From Burkholderiales bacterium (GTDB lineage Bacteria; Pseudomonadota; Gammaproteobacteria; Burkholderiales; SG8-41), in the NCBI GenBank assembly GCA_019751125.1, contig JAIENU010000117.1, positions 1-64,000 of the forward strand: a DNA stretch of 64,000 nt. The letters are read 5' to 3'. The notes beneath the pieces were generated by a model. It made no database searches and was not told the DNA's origin. It saw only the letters and a program-made list of their open reading frames with translations. The translations under genes were made by a program, and so were the position numbers. Shown here one piece after another: positions 25,241 through 56,727 of the stretch; position 1 is the stretch's first letter; each line of letters starts with the position of its first letter.

Positions 25241-26239
25241 ATGAACGCCAAAACCGCAGTGCTGCTTGCCGCATCCCTGAGCCTGATTGCCCCTGCTCTC
25301 GCCTGGTCGCAGGCAAAAGGTGCGCAGACAAAAACCGACTACCCGAACCGGCCGGTGCGGATGATCGTGCCCTTTGCGCCGGGCGGCGCATCCGACTTTG
25401 TCGGCCGCATCATCCAGGCGCCGCTGGTTGAAATCCTCGGCCAGCAGGTGGTCATCGAAAACCGCTCGGGTGCTGCCGGCAACATCGGCGTCGAGTATGC
25501 GGTGCGCGCAAGCCCCGATGGCTACACCTTCCTGCTCGGCAACGTGGGTTCGATCGCGATCAACCCGAACTACTACACCAAGTTCCCGTACCGGCCGCTG
25601 AAGGATCTGGTCGCGGTGTCGCAGGTGGTCGATGTCCCGGGCAGTCTGGTCGTGCACCCCACGGTTCCGGCAAAGAACGTGAAGGAGCTCATCGGCCACT
25701 TGAAGGCCAATCCGGGCAAGCTCAACTTCGGCTCGCCCGCGCCGAGCAGCGCCAACTCCCTGGAAGCCAAGATGTTCCTGATGCTGACGGGCACCAACGC
25801 CACCGAAGTGCCCTACAAAGGCGGCGCCGGCCCGGCCACCGTCGGCCTGCTTGCCAACGAGGTGCAGTTCATGTTTGCCACGTTCAGCTCGACGGTGAAC
25901 TTCTCCAAGCAGGGCCGGCTGCGCATGCTCGGCATCATCGCGCCCGAACGTAATGCCGCCTACCCGGAGGCACCCACGATGAAGGAACAGGGCTTCGACA
26001 TGGTGGTCGGCTCCTGGCAGGGCGTGTTCGTCCCCGCCGGCACGCCCCGCCCCGTGGTGAACCGGCTGTTTGAAGCCACCCAAAAGGCGATGAAGGACCA
26101 GGGCGCCATCAAGCGGCTCAACGACGGCGGCGTGCCGGCCATCGTCAGCGCCTCGCCTGAGGACTTCAACAAATTCGTCAAGTCGGAAACCGAGCGTTTC
26201 GGCAAGGTCATCCGCGAAGCCAAGATTCAGACCGAATAA
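25241..26239 (+). CDS. Tripartite tricarboxylate transporter (TTT/Bug) periplasmic receptor
   Basis: 332 residues with a strong GAGGAGGAAG ribosome site. The signal peptide (AVLLAASLSLIAPALAWSQA) is followed by YPNRPVRMIVPFAPGGASDFVGR, the classic Bug receptor N-terminal strand and loop, and VEVPYKGGAGPATVGLLANEVQ in the second half. It binds a carboxylate in the periplasm. It is followed by an LLM oxidoreductase and a two-component monooxygenase, which probably use the same imported substrate or its products. Confidence 0.92.
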   Translation: MNAKTAVLLAASLSLIAPALAWSQAKGAQTKTDYPNRPVRMIVPFAPGGASDFVGRIIQAPLVEILGQQVVIENRSGAAGNIGVEYAVRASPDGYTFLLGNVGSIAINPNYYTKFPYRPLKDLVAVSQVVDVPGSLVVHPTVPAKNVKELIGHLKANPGKLNFGSPAPSSANSLEAKMFLMLTGTNATEVPYKGGAGPATVGLLANEVQFMFATFSSTVNFSKQGRLRMLGIIAPERNAAYPEAPTMKEQGFDMVVGSWQGVFVPAGTPRPVVNRLFEATQKAMKDQGAIKRLNDGGVPAIVSASPEDFNKFVKSETERFGKVIREAKIQTE

Positions 26240-26283: not shown

Positions 26284-27378
26284 ATGAAACTCGCCAGCTT
26301 CATGATGCCGCTGCACCCGCCCGGCAAAAACTACCCGCAATCACTGCGTGAGGACCGCGAGGCCATCATCCTCGCCGACCAGCTCGGTTACGAGGAAGCC
26401 TTTGTCGGCGAGCATGTCACGGATGTCGCGGAGACCGTCACGCACTGCATGACCTTCCTGGCGAGCCTGGCGCCGGTGACCAAGCGCATCAAGCTCGGCA
26501 CCGGCACCATCAACGTGCCGAACTCCCACCCCGCCGCGATCGCGGCGCAGGTGGCGATGCTCGACAACATGCTTGAGGGCCGATTCATCATGGGCATCAG
26601 CCCCGGCGGCCTGATGTCGGACGCCGAGGTCTTCGGCAACCTCGGCAACGACCGCAACGCGATGTTCGTCGAGGGCATCAACATGGTGCTGAAAATCTGG
26701 GAATCCGAACCGCCGTACAACCTCGAAGGCAAGTTCTGGAAGGTCACCACCGAAAAAACCATGATCCCGGAAATCGGCCAGGGCATCATCCTCAAGCCCT
26801 TCCAGAAACCGCATCCGCTGATCGTCGGCACCGTGGTCGCCCCGTTCTCCAAGGGCGTCACCGCAATGGCCGAGCGCGGCTGGCAGCCGATCTCCGCGAA
26901 CTTCCTGCTGCCGGACTGGGTGAGGACACACTGGCCCAACTATGCCGAAGGCAAGAAGAACATCGGCCAGGTCGCCAACACCGCCGACTGGCGTGTCGCC
27001 AAAAGCATCTTCGTCGCCGATGATGAAGCCACCGCGCAGCGCTACGGCAAGTCTGCCGAAGGCCCCTATCACTTCTACTTCAAGCAGCTGGTGCGCAAGC
27101 TGGTCGGCTTCGGCAACCGCGGCAACCTGTTCAAGTCGGACCAGAGCATGCCGGATGCGATGATCACGCCCGAATACGTCACCGACAAGCTGGTCATCGC
27201 CGGCACCGTCAACAATGTGGTGGAGCAGATCCTCGCCTTCCGCGAGCAGGTCGGTGATTTCGGCACCCTGGTCTATGCCATGCACGACTGGATGGACCCG
27301 GCGCTGGCCAGGCGCTCGATGCAACTGATGGCCGAACAGGTGATGCCGAAAGTCAACGCCGCCCTCGGCAAATCCTGA
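26284..27378 (+). CDS. LLM-class flavin-dependent oxidoreductase (luciferase-like monooxygenase)
   Basis: 364 residues. The bacterial luciferase-like TIM barrel is recognisable from AIILADQLGYEEAFVGEHVTD, KLGTGTINVPNSHPAAIAA, MLDNMLEGRFIMGISPGG and the C-terminal VIAGTVNNVVEQILAFREQ. The family uses reduced FMN and oxygen for Baeyer-Villiger-like or hydroxylation reactions. The flavin reductase encoded at 29607 could supply it as well as the acyl-CoA dehydrogenase-like monooxygenase. It lies in a tight rightward run with short gaps. Confidence 0.9.
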   Translation: MKLASFMMPLHPPGKNYPQSLREDREAIILADQLGYEEAFVGEHVTDVAETVTHCMTFLASLAPVTKRIKLGTGTINVPNSHPAAIAAQVAMLDNMLEGRFIMGISPGGLMSDAEVFGNLGNDRNAMFVEGINMVLKIWESEPPYNLEGKFWKVTTEKTMIPEIGQGIILKPFQKPHPLIVGTVVAPFSKGVTAMAERGWQPISANFLLPDWVRTHWPNYAEGKKNIGQVANTADWRVAKSIFVADDEATAQRYGKSAEGPYHFYFKQLVRKLVGFGNRGNLFKSDQSMPDAMITPEYVTDKLVIAGTVNNVVEQILAFREQVGDFGTLVYAMHDWMDPALARRSMQLMAEQVMPKVNAALGKS

Positions 27379-27403: not shown

Positions 27404-28417
27404 GTGTTCAACGTCGCCGTAGTCGGCATGGGCTGGTGGGGCAAGATCATCGTCCCGCTGCTCAAGACCAGCCAGAAAATCACCGTCAGCACCGTCGTCG
27501 AAATCAATGCCGCGGGCATCGCCGATTTCGCCAGGCAGCATGGCGTCAAGGTCGTCACCAGCCTTGACGAGGTGCTGAAGGATCCATCGATCCAGGGCGT
27601 GGTGCTGTGCACGCCGCACACCCAGCACACCGAGCAGATCATCGCAGTGGCCAATGCCGGCAAACATGTGTTCTGCGAAAAACCGCTGTCGATGACCCGC
27701 GCCGACGTGCTGCGCGCGATCAAGGCCGTCAACGACAACAAGGTCGCCCTTGCCGTCGGCCACGAGCGCCGCTTCGAGCCGCCGATCATCGACCTGATGA
27801 AGGTGGTGAAGTCCGGCGAAATCGGCACGCCGCTGCAGGTTGAAGCCAATTTCAGCCAGGACAAATTCCTGACGCTGACCGCCGACAACTGGCGTCTCTC
27901 CGGCAAGGAAGCCCCGGCCGGCCCGATGACCGCCACCGGCATCCACCTGCTCGATCTTTCCGTCGGCGTGTTCGGTGAAGCCGAACGCGTGCTGGCGAGT
28001 GTCAAGCAGCTCGGCAGCCAACTGGTCAACGGCGACACGCTGGCGATCATGGTGTCGTTCAGGAACGGCGGCCATGCGCTGATCAGCGCCATCCTCGCCA
28101 CGCCTTTCGACGGCCGCTTCGCGGTGTACGGCAGCAAGGGCTGGGTTGAAGTGCGCGACAAGACCCATCCGGAAAAACCGACTGGCTGGACCTTCACCAA
28201 GGTCGTGCGCGGTGCCAATGGCGCACCCGAAAGTCGCGAGACCAGGGCCTACGAACCCGCACCCAATGTGCTGGCCAACCTTGAAGCCTTCGCCGATGCC
28301 GCCGAAGGCCGCGCGCCGTACCCGGTGCCGCAGTCGCAGATGATCGCCAACATCTCCGCGCTGGAGGCGATTTTCAAATCCGCGGCGACGCAGCAGATCG
28401 TCCCGGTCGAGTCCTGA
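27404..28417 (+). CDS. Gfo/Idh/MocA-family oxidoreductase (paralogue 3)
   Basis: 337 residues from a GTG start at 27404, 25 bases after the preceding stop; AAGGGAAT is the ribosome site. FNVAVVGMGWWGKIIVPLL is the NAD(P)-binding motif, followed by CTPHTQHTEQI, VFCEKPLSMT and GPMTATGIHLLDL. It shares the rare GWWGK sequence with paralogue 4 at 30792, indicating a recent common origin. Its stop codon overlaps the next start by one base (TGATG). Confidence 0.9.
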   Translation: MFNVAVVGMGWWGKIIVPLLKTSQKITVSTVVEINAAGIADFARQHGVKVVTSLDEVLKDPSIQGVVLCTPHTQHTEQIIAVANAGKHVFCEKPLSMTRADVLRAIKAVNDNKVALAVGHERRFEPPIIDLMKVVKSGEIGTPLQVEANFSQDKFLTLTADNWRLSGKEAPAGPMTATGIHLLDLSVGVFGEAERVLASVKQLGSQLVNGDTLAIMVSFRNGGHALISAILATPFDGRFAVYGSKGWVEVRDKTHPEKPTGWTFTKVVRGANGAPESRETRAYEPAPNVLANLEAFADAAEGRAPYPVPQSQMIANISALEAIFKSAATQQIVPVES

Positions 28418-29592
28418 TGGCCGTCGCCGCGCCCACGCATGCCGAGCTGGTCCAGCGCGCGCTGGCGCTGGTGCCCAGGCTGCGCGAGCGCGCGCCGCGC
28501 GCGGAGGAACTGCGCCGCATCCCCGACGACACGCTGGCCGACCTCCATGCCAGCGGCCTGTTCCGCATGCTGCAACCCAAACGGGTCGGCGGCAGCGAGC
28601 TGTCCTATGAAGCCATCGTCGAGCTGTGCGCGATCATCGGCCGCGGCTGCGGCTCCACCGCCTGGGTGCTGGCCAACCTTGCCAACCACCACTGGATGCT
28701 CGCGCTGTGGCCGCGCCGGGCGCAGGATGAAATCTGGGGTCCCTCGCCCGACACGCTGGTCGGTTCGGCCCTGATGTTTCCCGCCGGCCATGCCGAGCGC
28801 AGCGAGGGCGGTTACCGCCTCTCCGGCCACTGGAAGTTCTCCAGCGGCATCGACGCCTGCGGCTGGTGCATGCTCGGCGGCATCGCCCACAGCAGCGAAG
28901 GTGAACTGCCCGAATACCAGGTGTTCCTGGTGCCGCAATCCGATTACCGCATCATCGACACCTGGCATGTCGCCGGCCTGCGCGGCACCGGCAGCAAGGA
29001 TGTTGAAGTCAGCAACGTCTTCGTGCCGGCGCACCGCGCGCTGGCGGTGAAGGACATGAAAGGCGGCATCGCACCCGGCGGAGAAACCGCGGCGCTGTAC
29101 CGGCTGCCGGTGTTCGACCTGTTTCCGTACGTGGTGGCCGGCGCCGCGCTGGGCATCGCGCAGGGCGCGCTCGAAGCCTTCAGCGAGGACATCCGCCATC
29201 GCATCACCGCCTACTCGACCACGCTGCTCGCCGACTACGCCACCACGCAGTCGCGGCTGGGCCATGCCGCGGCCGCGGTCTCCGCCGCCGAGCGCATCCT
29301 GACCGGCAACTGCCGCGAAGCCATGGCCCTGGCCGCGAACGGCGTGCCCTCGCGCGACCACAAGATCCGCCTGCGCCGCGACGGCGCCTATGCCGCCCAC
29401 CTCTGCACCACCGCGGTGGACCTGCTGTTTGGCGCCGGCGGCGGTGAATTCCTCTACAACCAGCAGGTCATCCAGCGCTCGTTCCGCGATGTCCATGCCG
29501 CGAACAGCCATTACGCCCTGGCCTGGGACATCGCAACGACGATGGCCGGCAAGGACCTGCTGGGCATTGCCGCCGATTTGCCGACCCTGTAG
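28417..29592 (+). CDS. Acyl-CoA dehydrogenase-fold flavin monooxygenase (HpaH/HsaA-like, group D)
   Basis: 391 residues. The N-terminal helical domain (HASGLFRMLQPKRVGGSELSYEAIVEL), the middle beta domain with FSSGIDACGWCMLGG, and the C-terminal helices ending LLFGAGGGEFLYNQQVIQRSFRDVHAANSH match oxygenase components that accept reduced flavin rather than true acyl-CoA dehydrogenases. The next gene encodes a flavin reductase, completing a two-component system. Such enzymes hydroxylate phenolic or heterocyclic substrates or desulfurise thiophenes; which applies here is unknown. Confidence 0.87.
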   Translation: MAVAAPTHAELVQRALALVPRLRERAPRAEELRRIPDDTLADLHASGLFRMLQPKRVGGSELSYEAIVELCAIIGRGCGSTAWVLANLANHHWMLALWPRRAQDEIWGPSPDTLVGSALMFPAGHAERSEGGYRLSGHWKFSSGIDACGWCMLGGIAHSSEGELPEYQVFLVPQSDYRIIDTWHVAGLRGTGSKDVEVSNVFVPAHRALAVKDMKGGIAPGGETAALYRLPVFDLFPYVVAGAALGIAQGALEAFSEDIRHRITAYSTTLLADYATTQSRLGHAAAAVSAAERILTGNCREAMALAANGVPSRDHKIRLRRDGAYAAHLCTTAVDLLFGAGGGEFLYNQQVIQRSFRDVHAANSHYALAWDIATTMAGKDLLGIAADLPTL

Positions 29593-29606: not shown

Positions 29607-30122
29607 ATGGCCGACCACAACACACCGGCCGCGCCGGACTTCGATCCGCGCGACTTCCGCAACGCGCTGGGCCTGTTTGCCACCGGTGTGACCATCGTCA
29701 CCACGCGCACCGCCGCCGGGGATCCGATCGGCCTCACCGCCAATTCCTTCAGCTCGGTATCGCTGGCCCCGCCGCTGGTGCTGTGGAGCCTGTCGCTGCG
29801 CTCGCCCAACCTGCCCAACTTCCTGCAGGCCACGCATTTCGCGATCAACGTGCTCGCGCGCGACCAGATCGCGCTGTCGCAGCGCTTCTCGAAGCCGATC
29901 CCGAACAAGTTTGAAGGCATCGCCTGCACCGACGGCCTGGAACGGTTGCCCCTGCTTGATGGTGCCGCGGCGCAGTTCCAGTGCCGCACCGAGGCCCGCC
30001 ACTATGCCGGCGACCATGTCATTTTTATCGGCCAGGTGCTGCAGTACCGCCAAACTGAACGCGAAGCATTGGGCTATTTCCGCGGCCGTTATGCCGCAAT
30101 GAGCACGATTGATCCCACCTGA
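29607..30122 (+). CDS. Flavin reductase (two-component monooxygenase partner)
   Basis: 171 residues. FRNALGLFATGVTIVTTRTAAGDPIGLTANSFSSVSLAPPLVLW is the conserved N-terminal part of the HpaC/flavin-reductase-like FMN-binding split barrel, and the C-terminal GDHVIFIGQVLQY completes it. It reduces FMN or FAD with NAD(P)H and hands it to the oxygenase encoded immediately upstream, 14 bases away. Confidence 0.93.
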   Translation: MADHNTPAAPDFDPRDFRNALGLFATGVTIVTTRTAAGDPIGLTANSFSSVSLAPPLVLWSLSLRSPNLPNFLQATHFAINVLARDQIALSQRFSKPIPNKFEGIACTDGLERLPLLDGAAAQFQCRTEARHYAGDHVIFIGQVLQYRQTEREALGYFRGRYAAMSTIDPT

Positions 30123-30132
30123 GAGGACAGCC

Positions 30133-30762
30133 ATGACCCAGCGTATCCGCGGTATCAGCGATGAAGAAGCCACCGGCCCGGCGAAAGACCTGTTCGAAGC
30201 CTCGAACCGGATGCTCGGCCGCACCGCCAACCTGATGCGCATCATGGCGCACAGCCCCTACCTCGCGCGCTGGATGCTGCCGTTCATTGCCGCGGTGCGC
30301 CAGCCCAATGCCGGCGCGGTGTCGGATGTGCGCCTGCGCAACCTCGCGGTGCTGAAAACCTCGACGCTGAACGGCTGCAAGTATTGAACGGAACACAACT
30401 ACGTGCTTGGTCAAGCACTGGGACTGAAGGACACCGAGTTCGACGCGCTGCAGGGTGACTATCGCTCAAGCCCCCTGTTCAGCGAACGTGAAAAGGCGGT
30501 GATCGCGTGGGCGGAAGCGATGACACTGAACACGGCCAAACGCGACAACGCGGTGTGGGACGAATTGAAGCGCCATTTCAGCGATGCCGAGATTGTCGAG
30601 ATCTCGCTGATCACCGGCATGTTCAACATGATCAACCGCCTCAACGATTCCTTCCGCACCGAGCTCGAAAGCGAGGAATACAACCGGCGACAGCACGGGG
30701 CTGTAGGCGTCACCCGCGCCACGCTGGAAGAGTATGCCTGCCGCATCTGCGCGCAGAAATAA
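30133..30762 (+). CDS. CMD/AhpD-like protein with in-frame TGA at the second redox-active Cys position: candidate CxxU selenoprotein
   Basis: A single frame of 210 codons from an ATG with GAGAGG upstream, interrupted only by TGA at 30385-30387 (codon 85). The sequence around it is LKTSTLNGC82-K-Y-U85-TEHN, exactly where AhpD-like carboxymuconolactone decarboxylase-family proteins carry CxYC-TxHN. After the TGA the frame stays conserved for 124 residues (YVLGQALGLKDTEFDAL, SPLFSEREKAVIAWAEAMT, HFSDAEIVEISLITGMFNMI). A hairpin with GTGCTT/AAGCAC arms and a GGTC loop begins 15 bases after the TGA, matching the bacterial SECIS pattern. Two separate genes, or a nonsense mutation or sequencing error, are the alternatives. 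The role is likely peroxide or disulfide redox chemistry beside a flavin monooxygenase. Confidence 0.75.
30385..30418 (+). promoter_or_regulatory. TGA codon plus SECIS-like stem-loop
   Basis: TGA at 30385-30387 is followed after 15 bases by GTGCTT (30403-30408), loop GGTC (30409-30412) and AAGCAC (30413-30418): a perfect six-base-pair stem with a G and U exposed at the apex. In E. coli fdhF the SelB-binding hairpin likewise presents GGUC at a comparable distance from UGA. No fold energy was calculated. Confidence 0.65.
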
Positions 30763-30791
30763 CATAACCTTTTGATTTAATTGATAAAATA

Positions 30792-31763
30792 ATGATCAAT
30801 GCAGCCATAGTCGGTCTCGGCTGGTGGGGCAAGAACATTGCCGACGCCGTGCAGGGCAAAAGCAAAAAACTGCGCTTTGTGCACGGTGTGACGCAGGAAC
30901 TCGACGCCACCCGCGACTACGCCCAGGCCAAGGGCTTCCGCCTCTCCGCCACACTCGATGAAGCACTGGCCGATCCCCAGGTGCAGGCCGTGGTGCTGGC
31001 CACACCGCATTCGCTGCATTGCCGGCAGGTGCAGCAGGTCGCAGCCGCGGGCAAGGCCGTGTTCTGCGAAAAGCCGCTGTCGCTGACCCGCGCTGATGCA
31101 CAACGCGCCGTGGATGCCTGCAAAAAGGCCGGCGTGCCGCTGGGCGTGGGCCAGAACAAGCGCTTCTGGCCGTCGTGCACCGAGCTGCGCCGCGTCGTCG
31201 CCAGCGGCGCGCTGGGCCGCATCATGCATGTCGAGGGCCACTACTCCAACGAGCATTCGAGCAAGTTTTTCGCGCCCTGGCGCGACCTGCCCTCGGAGAC
31301 GCCGGGCGCGGGCATGACCGGCACCGGCATCCACATCCTCGACGCCTTCGCCAACATCGCCGGACCCGCCGAAAAAGTCACTGCGCAGTTCATCAGCCAC
31401 CGCGAAGGCGGCGACCCGCGCGACACGGTGTCCGTCCTCTTTAAATTCAACAACAACATCAGCGGTTTCCTCGGCGCGGTGCGCGCCTCGCCGCTGTATT
31501 TTCGCTTGCATGTCTTCGGCGACGAAGGTTCGGTCGAGGCACTGGACGAAACACGTGTCATCGTGCGGCTGAAGGGCAGCCAGACCGAAGTGAAGGATTT
31601 CCCGAAGATTGATTCAGTACTGGCGGAAATCGACGCCTTCGCAGACGCCGTGGCCGGTGTTTCGCCCTACCCGATCACGATGAACGAGATGGTCGACACC
31701 ATTGCATCCTTCGACGCGGTGATCCGCTCGATCAAGGCGGACGGCGCGCCGGTCACGCCCTGA
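30792..31763 (+). CDS. Gfo/Idh/MocA-family oxidoreductase (paralogue 4)
   Basis: 323 residues. INAAIVGLGWWGKNIADAV is the NAD(P) motif, followed by LATPHSLHCRQVQQV, VFCEKPLSLTRADAQRAV and GAGMTGTGIHILDAFANIAG. It is close to paralogue 3 across these motifs. It is the last gene of the rightward catabolic run and lies 29 bases after the candidate selenoprotein gene. The two may act in consecutive steps. Confidence 0.9.
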   Translation: MINAAIVGLGWWGKNIADAVQGKSKKLRFVHGVTQELDATRDYAQAKGFRLSATLDEALADPQVQAVVLATPHSLHCRQVQQVAAAGKAVFCEKPLSLTRADAQRAVDACKKAGVPLGVGQNKRFWPSCTELRRVVASGALGRIMHVEGHYSNEHSSKFFAPWRDLPSETPGAGMTGTGIHILDAFANIAGPAEKVTAQFISHREGGDPRDTVSVLFKFNNNISGFLGAVRASPLYFRLHVFGDEGSVEALDETRVIVRLKGSQTEVKDFPKIDSVLAEIDAFADAVAGVSPYPITMNEMVDTIASFDAVIRSIKADGAPVTP

Positions 31764-53793: not shown

Positions 53794-56727
53794 TTATGCC
53801 TTGGCGACCTGGCACAGCGTGGTCTTGGTTTCCTGCATCATGGTCACGATGTCGTAGCCATAAGTGGTTGCCGTATTGACCGCTTCGCCGCGCACCACCG
53901 GGGCAGCACCGTCCGGGTATTGCTTCTTCATGTCCTCGCCCTCAAACCAGCCCGCGAAGTGGAAGGGCAGGAACACCGTGCCGGGAGCAACCCGCTCGGT
54001 GACCAGCGTCTTCACCTTCAGCTTCGGCTTGCTCGGCGCCGGCGTGGTGACCCACACATATTCGTTGTTGCGCACGCCGCGGTCGTTGGCGTCCTTCGGA
54101 TTGATCTCGACGAACATTTCCTGCTGCAGCTCGGCAAGCCACGGATTCGACCGCGTCTCGTCGCCGCCGCCCTCGTATTCCACCAGGCGGCCGCTGGTCA
54201 TGATCAGCGGGAACTGCTTGCCGGCATCCTTGTTCGCGTCCTGCACCGTCTTGAACAGCACCGGCAGGCGCCAGCGGTTCTTCTGGTCGGCGTGGGTCGG
54301 ATATTTCTCGATCAGGTCCGGGCGCGGGCTGTACAGCGGCTCGCGGTGCAGCGGCACCGGGTCCGGGAAATTCCACACCATTGCGCGCGCCTTGGCGTTG
54401 CCGAAGGGATGGCAACCATGCTCCTTCATGAACACGCGGATCATGCCGCCCGAAGGATCGGTTTTCCAGTTCTTGCCCTCGGCCGCCTTCTTCTCGTCCT
54501 CGGTGAGTTCATCCCACCAGCCGAGTTTTTTCAGCAGCACATGGTCGAGTTCCGGATAACCCGTGGTCAGGTCGGCGCCCTTCGAGTGCGAGCCGTCTTC
54601 CGCCAGCAGATTGACGCCATCCTTCTCGACACCAAAGTTGGCGCGGAAGTTGCCGCCACCATCCATGATGTGGCGATCGGTCTGGTAGAGGTTCGGCGAA
54701 CCCGGATGCTTCAGCGAAGCATTGCCGTAGCAGGGCCACGGCAGGCCGAAATAATCACCGTCGAGGTCGTATCCGGTCTTTGCGTCCTTGCCGCCCTTGG
54801 CGCGCAGCGTCTTCACGTCGAAGACATGCATGTTGCGCATGTGGGCCTGCAGGCGCTCCGGCGACTGGCCGGTGTAACCGATGGTCCACACGCCCCGGTT
54901 GATCTCGCGCAGCGTGTCCTCCATGTCCGGCTCGTCCATGCCGCCCTTGCCCTTGGCGAGCTTGATCTTGGCGGTGAACTCCTTGGCGAAGCCGAATTTC
55001 TGCGCCAGCTGATACATGATCATGTGATCAGTGCGCGACTCGAACATCGGATCGATCACTTTCTCGCGCCACTGGATGGAACGGTTCGATGCCGTGCAGG
55101 AACCCGCGCATTCGAGCTGGGTGGCTGCAGGCAGCAGGTAGACGCCGTCCTTGCGCGCCATTGCCGCCATCGCCGCAGTGGCCGAGGGGTACGGATCAAT
55201 GACGACCAGCGTGTCAAGTTTCTTGATCGCCTCGATCATTTCCTTGCCGCGGTTCTGGCTGTTCGGCGCATGGCCCCAGAACACCACCGCCTTCAGGTTG
55301 CTGTCCTGATCGATCAGTTCGTTCTTTTCCATCACCGCGTCGATCCAGCGCGACACCGTGATGCCGGGCTTGGACATCATGCCCGGTGCGAATTGTTTCT
55401 TGATCCACTCGAAATCAACGCCCCAGACGTTCGCGAAGTGCTTCCACGAACCTTCGGCGATGCCGTAGTAACCCGGCAGCGAGTCCGGATTAGGGCCGAC
55501 GTCGGTCGCACCCTGCACGTTGTCATGCCCGCGGTAGATGTTGGTGCCGCCGCCCGACACCCCGACATTGCCAAGCGCGAGCTGCAGGATGCAGGACGCG
55601 CGCACGATGGCGTTGCCGTTGGTGTGCTGGGTCTGGCCCATCGCCCAGACGATGGTGCTGGGCCGGTTCTTGGCCATCTTTTCGGCAACGTCGCGGACTT
55701 CCGCTTCCTTCATGCCGGTGACCTTCTCGACCTCCTCGGGCGTCCACTTGGCCGCCTCCTCCTTGACCTTGTCCATGCCGTAGACACGGGCCTTGATGTA
55801 GTCCTTGTCTTCCCAGCCGTTCTTGAAGATGTGGTGCAGCATGCCCATCAGGAAGGCCACGTCGGTTCCCGAGCGGATGCGGTAGAAGGTGTCGGCCTTG
55901 GCCGCGGTGCGCGTGAAGCGCGGATCCACCACGATCACCTTGGCGCCGTTTTCCTTGGCGTGCAGGGTGTGCAGCATCGACACCGGATGCGCCTCGGCCG
56001 CATTGGAACCGAAGAACAGGATGCACTTTGAATTCTGTTCATCGTTGTACGAGTTGGTCATCGCGCCATAACCCCAGGTATTCGCCACACCCGCTACCGT
56101 GGTCGAGTGGCAAATGCGCGCCTGGTGATCCATGTTGTTGGTGCCGAAGAACGACACGAACTTGCGCAGCAGGTAGGACTGCTCGTTGTTGTGCTTGCTG
56201 GAACCGATCCAGAAGGTGGCATCAGGACCTGACTCCTTGCGGATTTTGAGCAGCCGCTCGCTGACCTCGTTGAGGGCGACATCCCAGGAAATCTTCTCCC
56301 ACTTGCCGTCCTTCAGCTTCATCGGCGTGCGCAGGCGGTGCGAAATTTCGTGCATGCCGTGCTCGCGGATCGAAGCCCCCTTCGCGCAGTGCGCGCCGAG
56401 GTTGATCGGCGAATCGAACACCGGCTCCTGACGGATCCACACGCCGTTCTGCACCACCGCATCGATCGCGCAGCCCACCGAACAGTGGGTGCAGATCGTG
56501 CGTTTGACTTCGATCTTGCCGTCAGCGGCCTTGTCGGCGGCCTCGGCCTTTTTCATCACCGGGAACGGCAGCTGCGACAGCGCCGCGGCGCCGCCGGCGG
56601 CCATGCCGCTGCGCTTGAGGAAAGTGCGGCGGTCGATGGTGTTGCCGAGAAAGGCCGAGGCATTGCGCACCATGCGCTGCTGGCCTGCGGTTGCGCCGGA
56701 CTGCGTGGATTTGCGAGTGAGCAACAT
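53794..56727 (-). CDS. fdoG: Formate dehydrogenase catalytic (alpha) subunit, Mo/W-bis-MGD, Cys form
   Basis: 977 residues. A Tat signal (DRRTFLKRSGMAAGG, residues 33-46) exports the folded protein to the periplasm. The N-terminal 4Fe-4S motif is CTHCSVGCAID, with a fourth Cys in GAHCAKG. The active-site residue equivalent to the selenocysteine of E. coli FdnG is Cys206 in ARICHSTTVAGVANTWGYGAMTN, encoded by TGC. His207 follows as expected. The cofactor-binding NAAEAHPVS and DPRFTRTAAKAD stretches and the C-terminal molydopterin dinucleotide domain are complete. It oxidises formate to CO2; the neighbouring tup and mod genes allow either tungsten or molybdenum. Confidence 0.95.
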   Translation of the reverse strand: MLLTRKSTQSGATAGQQRMVRNASAFLGNTIDRRTFLKRSGMAAGGAAALSQLPFPVMKKAEAADKAADGKIEVKRTICTHCSVGCAIDAVVQNGVWIRQEPVFDSPINLGAHCAKGASIREHGMHEISHRLRTPMKLKDGKWEKISWDVALNEVSERLLKIRKESGPDATFWIGSSKHNNEQSYLLRKFVSFFGTNNMDHQARICHSTTVAGVANTWGYGAMTNSYNDEQNSKCILFFGSNAAEAHPVSMLHTLHAKENGAKVIVVDPRFTRTAAKADTFYRIRSGTDVAFLMGMLHHIFKNGWEDKDYIKARVYGMDKVKEEAAKWTPEEVEKVTGMKEAEVRDVAEKMAKNRPSTIVWAMGQTQHTNGNAIVRASCILQLALGNVGVSGGGTNIYRGHDNVQGATDVGPNPDSLPGYYGIAEGSWKHFANVWGVDFEWIKKQFAPGMMSKPGITVSRWIDAVMEKNELIDQDSNLKAVVFWGHAPNSQNRGKEMIEAIKKLDTLVVIDPYPSATAAMAAMARKDGVYLLPAATQLECAGSCTASNRSIQWREKVIDPMFESRTDHMIMYQLAQKFGFAKEFTAKIKLAKGKGGMDEPDMEDTLREINRGVWTIGYTGQSPERLQAHMRNMHVFDVKTLRAKGGKDAKTGYDLDGDYFGLPWPCYGNASLKHPGSPNLYQTDRHIMDGGGNFRANFGVEKDGVNLLAEDGSHSKGADLTTGYPELDHVLLKKLGWWDELTEDEKKAAEGKNWKTDPSGGMIRVFMKEHGCHPFGNAKARAMVWNFPDPVPLHREPLYSPRPDLIEKYPTHADQKNRWRLPVLFKTVQDANKDAGKQFPLIMTSGRLVEYEGGGDETRSNPWLAELQQEMFVEINPKDANDRGVRNNEYVWVTTPAPSKPKLKVKTLVTERVAPGTVFLPFHFAGWFEGEDMKKQYPDGAAPVVRGEAVNTATTYGYDIVTMMQETKTTLCQVAKA

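Follow-up and report, generated by a model that had tools for sequence, protein, structure and literature searches.

A predicted AhpD/CMD-fold selenoprotein with a CxxU motif, a covarying SECIS hairpin and a C-terminal CxxC tail in an uncultured relative of Burkholderiales

The window, that is, the whole 64,000-nucleotide stretch of DNA analysed here, carries on its plus strand, at 30133-30762, a reading frame whose sole interruption over 209 codons is a TGA at codon 85, within the residue context L-N-G-C-K-Y-(TGA)-T-E-H-N. Another 124 residues follow 3' of the TGA, up to a TAA at 30760-30762, and translation bears out what the first-pass annotation had described, a single frame broken by TGA in which coding continues. 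That annotation also expected standard gene calling to split the gene, and the standard genetic code does yield two ORFs (92 aa and 119 aa) in place of one. The genes and elements of the locus are as follows.

25241..26239, plus strand: TctC/Bug-type solute-binding receptor (PF03401)
26284..27378, plus strand: luciferase-like (LLM) flavin oxidoreductase (PF00296)
27404..28417, plus strand: Gfo/Idh/MocA oxidoreductase
28417..29592, plus strand: oxygenase component of an HsaA-type flavin-dependent monooxygenase (PF08028; NF045629 at 339 bits, short of the cut-off of 450)
29607..30122, plus strand: flavin reductase (HpaC/HsaB-like), 10 bp upstream of the selenoprotein gene
30123..30127, plus strand: putative Shine-Dalgarno-like GAGGA ahead of the ATG at 30133, read from the sequence
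30133..30762, plus strand: predicted AhpD/CMD-like selenoprotein gene, 209 residues with Sec85 when the TGA is read through, TAA stop
30376..30387, plus strand: CxxU redox motif Cys82-Lys-Tyr-Sec85, aligned to C48-A-Y-C51 of PA0269
30385..30387, plus strand: TGA codon 85, predicted to be read as selenocysteine
30403-30408 and 30413-30418, plus strand: arms of the putative bacterial SECIS hairpin, with the GGTC loop at 30409-30412, identified by conservation, covariation and published criteria
30739..30750, plus strand: C-terminal CxxC, Cys203-Arg-Ile-Cys206
30792..31763, plus strand: second Gfo/Idh/MocA oxidoreductase, 29 bp downstream of the selenoprotein gene

TGA is also the ordinary stop codon of the flavin reductase gene upstream and of several other neighbours, so that it is not reassigned in the source genome, and a general reassignment was ruled out on these grounds. 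In 27 of 29 orthologous loci from other species, this codon is again TGA; the remaining two, Acidiferrobacteraceae L035 and Rhodospirillales L036, have a Cys codon aligned with residue 85. The frame behind the TGA is open to the same end in all full-length members, an internal deletion being found in one orthologue (L038), and the median dN/dS is 0.146 before the TGA and 0.141 after it. Since purifying selection is thus equal on both sides, the part downstream of the TGA is selected as protein; decayed downstream frames, which the first-pass annotation had named as grounds for abandoning its reading, did not occur among the homologues. A pseudogene or a sequencing error, be it a decaying frame or a true TGC or TGT Cys codon misread, might be suspected where a single base separates TGA from TGC in a fragmented MAG, but the independent assemblies of the 27 other species read TGA and not TGC, the downstream frame and the hairpin are conserved, and SelB is present throughout; together with the equal dN/dS, these observations make such an explanation extremely improbable. 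At the thresholds used, class-wide (369 genomes) and phylum-wide (398 genomes) draws added nothing to the set of orthologues, and the family is therefore either narrow or thinly sampled. The subfamily is distributed across uncultured relatives of Burkholderiales. Two MAG records titled Bordetella parapertussis (L029 and L030) hold this environmental gene family, and their titles look misassigned.

A perfect 6-bp stem with a GGTC loop had been reported 15 bases past the TGA, and we find it there (GTGCTT-GGTC-AAGCAC), the stem starting 15 nt after the TGA and the loop at +22. Its proposed likeness to bacterial SECIS elements is well founded: the 4-nt GGTC loop, 6 bp, 21 nt and predicted folding energy of -8.4 kcal/mol agree with the bacterial SECIS model, whose criteria cover loop, stem, spacing and energy (PMC13188914), and E. 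coli fdhF has an identical GGTC loop, at +19. Folding of the region, which had been suggested as a check, gave the hairpin as the predicted fold, but the energy of the single sequence is by itself unremarkable (z -0.55 over 46 nt, not significant; z -2.19 over 27 nt), and the case for the hairpin therefore rests on comparison among genes. A search of Rfam over 29800-31000 returned zero matches even at E 10, so that no Rfam family supports the hairpin. The 27 Sec genes compared agree completely at codons 91-94, which overlie the hairpin and show no synonymous change; at codons 95-96, 26 of the 27 agree. The excess of synonymous conservation reaches its maximum for the gene at codons 90-97, with 0.52 (gene median 0.10, sd 0.08). 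Because the hairpin is nearly invariant within the window's own family, covariation was drawn from related AhpD-like TGA genes, in a sample of 20 distinct sequences that includes related AhpD-like TGA subfamilies. The stem was paired in 98.3% of cells versus 84.2% in shuffles, and the covariation score was 0.486 versus 0.196 (0 of 500 shuffles in each case), while slid controls for pairing reached at most 50%. Three of the six stem pairs show compensatory change on both sides, and the GGTC loop is invariant; its different codon register in other AhpD-like subfamilies argues that the RNA, and not the protein sequence, is what is conserved.

The source genome is a fragmented MAG of 3.46 Mb in 275 contigs, estimated as 94% complete. 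The search for selA, selB, selC and selD proposed by the first-pass annotation recovered all four by computation: selA (575.7 bits), selB, selC (75.9 bits, anticodon tca) and selD (203 bits), the last being partial, cut off where the contig that holds the window ends. ARAGORN likewise identified the tRNA on contig C246 as tRNA-Sec with the anticodon tca (UCA). On that contig, selA-selB, a gene that we take from its sequence to be thioredoxin-reductase-like, a 178-aa ORF and selC are grouped at L039:5350-10538. A close TGA orthologue was found in 22 of 61 genomes, and SelB in 22 of those 22, one of which (G025) has an extra TAG in its orthologue. The SelB-bearing genome G802 has a Cys form, and Sec is thus no strict requirement for the function of the fold. 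The first-pass annotation had also read the formate dehydrogenase of the window as a Cys enzyme, which agrees with our alignment: a formate-dehydrogenase-like protein on the minus strand, at about 54976-56499, has Cys where fdhF has Sec140. An in-frame TGA would also fit two events without selenium, readthrough that inserts a different residue (Trp, or through a near-cognate tRNA) and regulated truncation, the identity of an inserted amino acid being beyond the reach of sequence analysis; nevertheless, Cys is the residue found in the Cys orthologues, the hairpin fits a SelB-type SECIS model, SelB co-occurs and TGA terminates neighbouring genes, which leaves readthrough of this kind highly improbable, if slightly less so than a pseudogene or error. 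We therefore hold with near certainty that the locus is one gene for a full redox protein with Sec inserted at the TGA, the insertion itself being something that we infer with equally high confidence from comparative sequence data, and the selenoprotein interpretation of the first-pass annotation is supported.

The assignment to the AhpD/CMD group, also made at first sight, is upheld by sequence and by the predicted fold. Profile scores lie below threshold throughout: the match to TIGR01926 (E 7e-19) reaches 68.3 bits against a cut-off of 81.8, Pfam CMD 20.9 bits where the gathering score is 23, and NF041238 38.6 bits against 175, with only the C-terminal part of its 357-position model matched; NF053654, the best NCBIfam match, covers nearly the whole length at 73.6 bits against 310. 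The sequence matches PDB entry 2gmy with E 5e-15, and the predicted structure, with a mean pLDDT of 83.8, gives Foldseek TM values of up to 0.69 by query length, the nearest structures being 2gmy, PA0269, an AhpD-like protein of D. radiodurans and the debrominase Bmp8. On this sequence and model evidence, the protein is predicted to have the AhpD/CMD fold and to belong to that superfamily. The redox Cys pair of PA0269 has its aligned counterparts in Cys82 and Sec85, Sec85 lying on C51, so that the TGA stands, as had been proposed, at the second redox Cys of the family. PA0269 and M. tuberculosis AhpD share the helical fold and the two-Cys active site with the window protein, which by contrast would have Sec for the second Cys, has Asn for the relay Glu and His, and adds a C-terminal dithiol. 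Of the five residues of the proton relay Glu-Cys-(Tyr/His)-Cys-His of AhpD and PA0269 (PMC3141380), three are kept (Cys82, Tyr84 and Sec85), relay Glu36 corresponding to Asn70 and relay His55 to Asn89, with His88 one residue earlier, and in this relay the protein departs from the classical AhpD peroxidase. It is most likely, by these alignments, a thiol redox enzyme of AhpD fold in which the classical peroxidase relay is incomplete.

AhpD-like selenoproteins with a CxxU motif have been published since 2005, when they were reported from the Sargasso Sea (PMC1088965); they are abundant in the GOS metagenomes (PMC2398784), and a 2026 review lists several AhpD selenoprotein families (PMC13188914). 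Their prior existence, which the first-pass annotation had noted, makes the window gene a new subfamily of a kind already known. The AhpD-like selenoproteins of COG2128/TIGR01926 have the same fold, Sec at the second redox position, a bacterial SECIS a short way downstream and related Cys forms; the window protein differs from them in scoring below the cut-off, in its C-terminal CxxC and in its restriction, within our searches, to one lineage. NF053654, the YciW-related (seleno)protein family (GroundWater_YciW), is also a (seleno)protein family, and the distance between 73.6 bits and its cut-off marks the window protein as a separate subfamily. With NF041238, the AhpD-related CFYUT (seleno)protein (hypothetical protein 1, Sargasso Sea), the C-x-Y-U-T motif is in common. 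By its profile scores the protein thus represents a predicted, unnamed subfamily outside the current NCBIfam models TIGR01926, NF053654 and NF041238, and four representatives of other AhpD-like TGA subfamilies also score below the cut-offs of these three models. Some of those other subfamilies may already be included in a groundwater-MAG study that the 2026 review cites.

Several further genes of this kind came to light. In the source genome, at L064:8609 (C264:23108), lies a second AhpD-like TGA gene, with the motif CHYUMAHT, followed directly at L064:9455 (C264:23954) by a PrdB/GrdB-like gene that has a TGA in SPV-U-PNC (UxxC) and a hairpin at +19 and scores 101 bits with TIGR04483, whose cut-off is 300; from their sequences, both of these neighbouring genes are candidates for selenoproteins. 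Among relatives of G802, the Rhodospirillales genome (e.g. G807, G860 and G885; L093-L108), there are several AhpD-like TGA genes per genome, with GGTC-loop hairpins, some of them close together on one contig. At L072 and L074, a second AhpD-like domain, from which the CxxC/CxxU motif has been lost, continues the reading frame of an AhpD-like TGA domain.

All 28 Sec proteins, including that of the window, end in a CxxC (mostly YACRIC), a feature missing from the first-pass annotation. The tail is present in none of the three distinct Cys forms (L035, L036 and L090), and it was not seen in the other Sec subfamilies of the AhpD fold that we examined. In a tree of 73 sequences the Sec forms are strongly clustered and the Cys form L102 lies inside a Sec clade, a placement that fits a replacement of Sec by Cys, in a tree in which several deep branches are weak. 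The Cys forms that lack the tail make up one clade, and the association of tail and Sec may therefore be a single event. We tentatively propose, as one possibility among others, that the tail is an intramolecular resolving dithiol for a Cys82-Sec85 selenenylsulfide, which would make the protein a self-contained selenoenzyme of AhpD fold. No description of such a built-in CxxC resolving arrangement on this fold was found in the literature searched.

The nearest relatives keep the gene order TctC - LLM - Gfo - HsaA-type monooxygenase - flavin reductase - Sec gene - Gfo. Other Sec orthologues stand beside genes that we read from sequence as an M24-like peptidase, a PEP-synthase-like gene and 2-hydroxyacid dehydrogenases, and in still others the Sec gene is alone next to what is presumably a CBS-domain gene. 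Of the idea that the protein works next to a flavin monooxygenase, one part stands, in that the neighbour is present and conserved in the nearest relatives, and the other does not, since other Sec orthologues are found elsewhere. A general role in guarding the flavin monooxygenase was ruled out because other Sec orthologues lack that neighbour; with its restriction to the closest relatives, the monooxygenase is a local partner that does not define the function.

Our explanation as a whole, which we consider probable, is that of a SECIS-driven selenoprotein of AhpD/CMD fold that performs redox chemistry at Sec85, with a proposed recycling by thiols. For the redox reaction, its substrate and the role of the tail, we infer the following scheme. 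SelB with selenocysteyl-tRNA (selC) would bind the GGUC-loop hairpin 15 nt past the UGA and place Sec at residue 85, where it would carry out the chemistry of the redox pair C82-x-Y-U85. The substrate attacked by Sec85 would be in oxidised form, with a hydroperoxide or a disulfide-type oxidant most likely, and a selenenylsulfide between Sec85 and Cys82 would follow. A thiol donor would then reduce this bond, the C-terminal CxxC dithiol of the protein itself plausibly acting before a thioredoxin-like or low-molecular-weight thiol. That the chemistry is thiol/selenol redox of a peroxide or disulfide kind is suggested by the sequence and is, on balance, the reading that we favour.

The protein may instead be a selenoprotein but no peroxidase, namely, a reductase that is specific for its substrate and serves the catabolic pathway of the cluster, acting for example through selenolate-driven removal of a leaving group. 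The gene does share operon-like runs with a transport gene (TctC) and catabolic oxidoreductases, the relay Glu and His of AhpD are not conserved, and Bmp8, which acts on bromopyrroles and removes bromine, is among the nearest solved relatives (6ohi, 6ohj), with the fold and the CxYC-x-x-H spacing in common. Yet the genomic contexts vary between orthologues, which speaks against one fixed pathway, and Bmp8 is a Cys enzyme of just ~21% identity; with a candidate substrate that is conjectural, we judge a dedicated reductase unlikely.

The SECIS-directed redox selenoprotein that we prefer adds a well-supported subfamily, uncaptured by current NCBIfam models and halved by gene callers, and means that an uncultured Burkholderiales-related lineage employs its Sec machinery outside formate dehydrogenase, the one in the window being a Cys enzyme. 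SECIS models could usefully be trained on the GGTC hairpins that covary across AhpD-like subfamilies. If the tail is indeed a resolving dithiol, the protein would be one of a larger set of AhpD-like selenoproteins than known so far, borne by uncultured beta- and alphaproteobacteria, and its Sec-linked CxxC tail offers a concrete, testable idea of how such enzymes are recycled.
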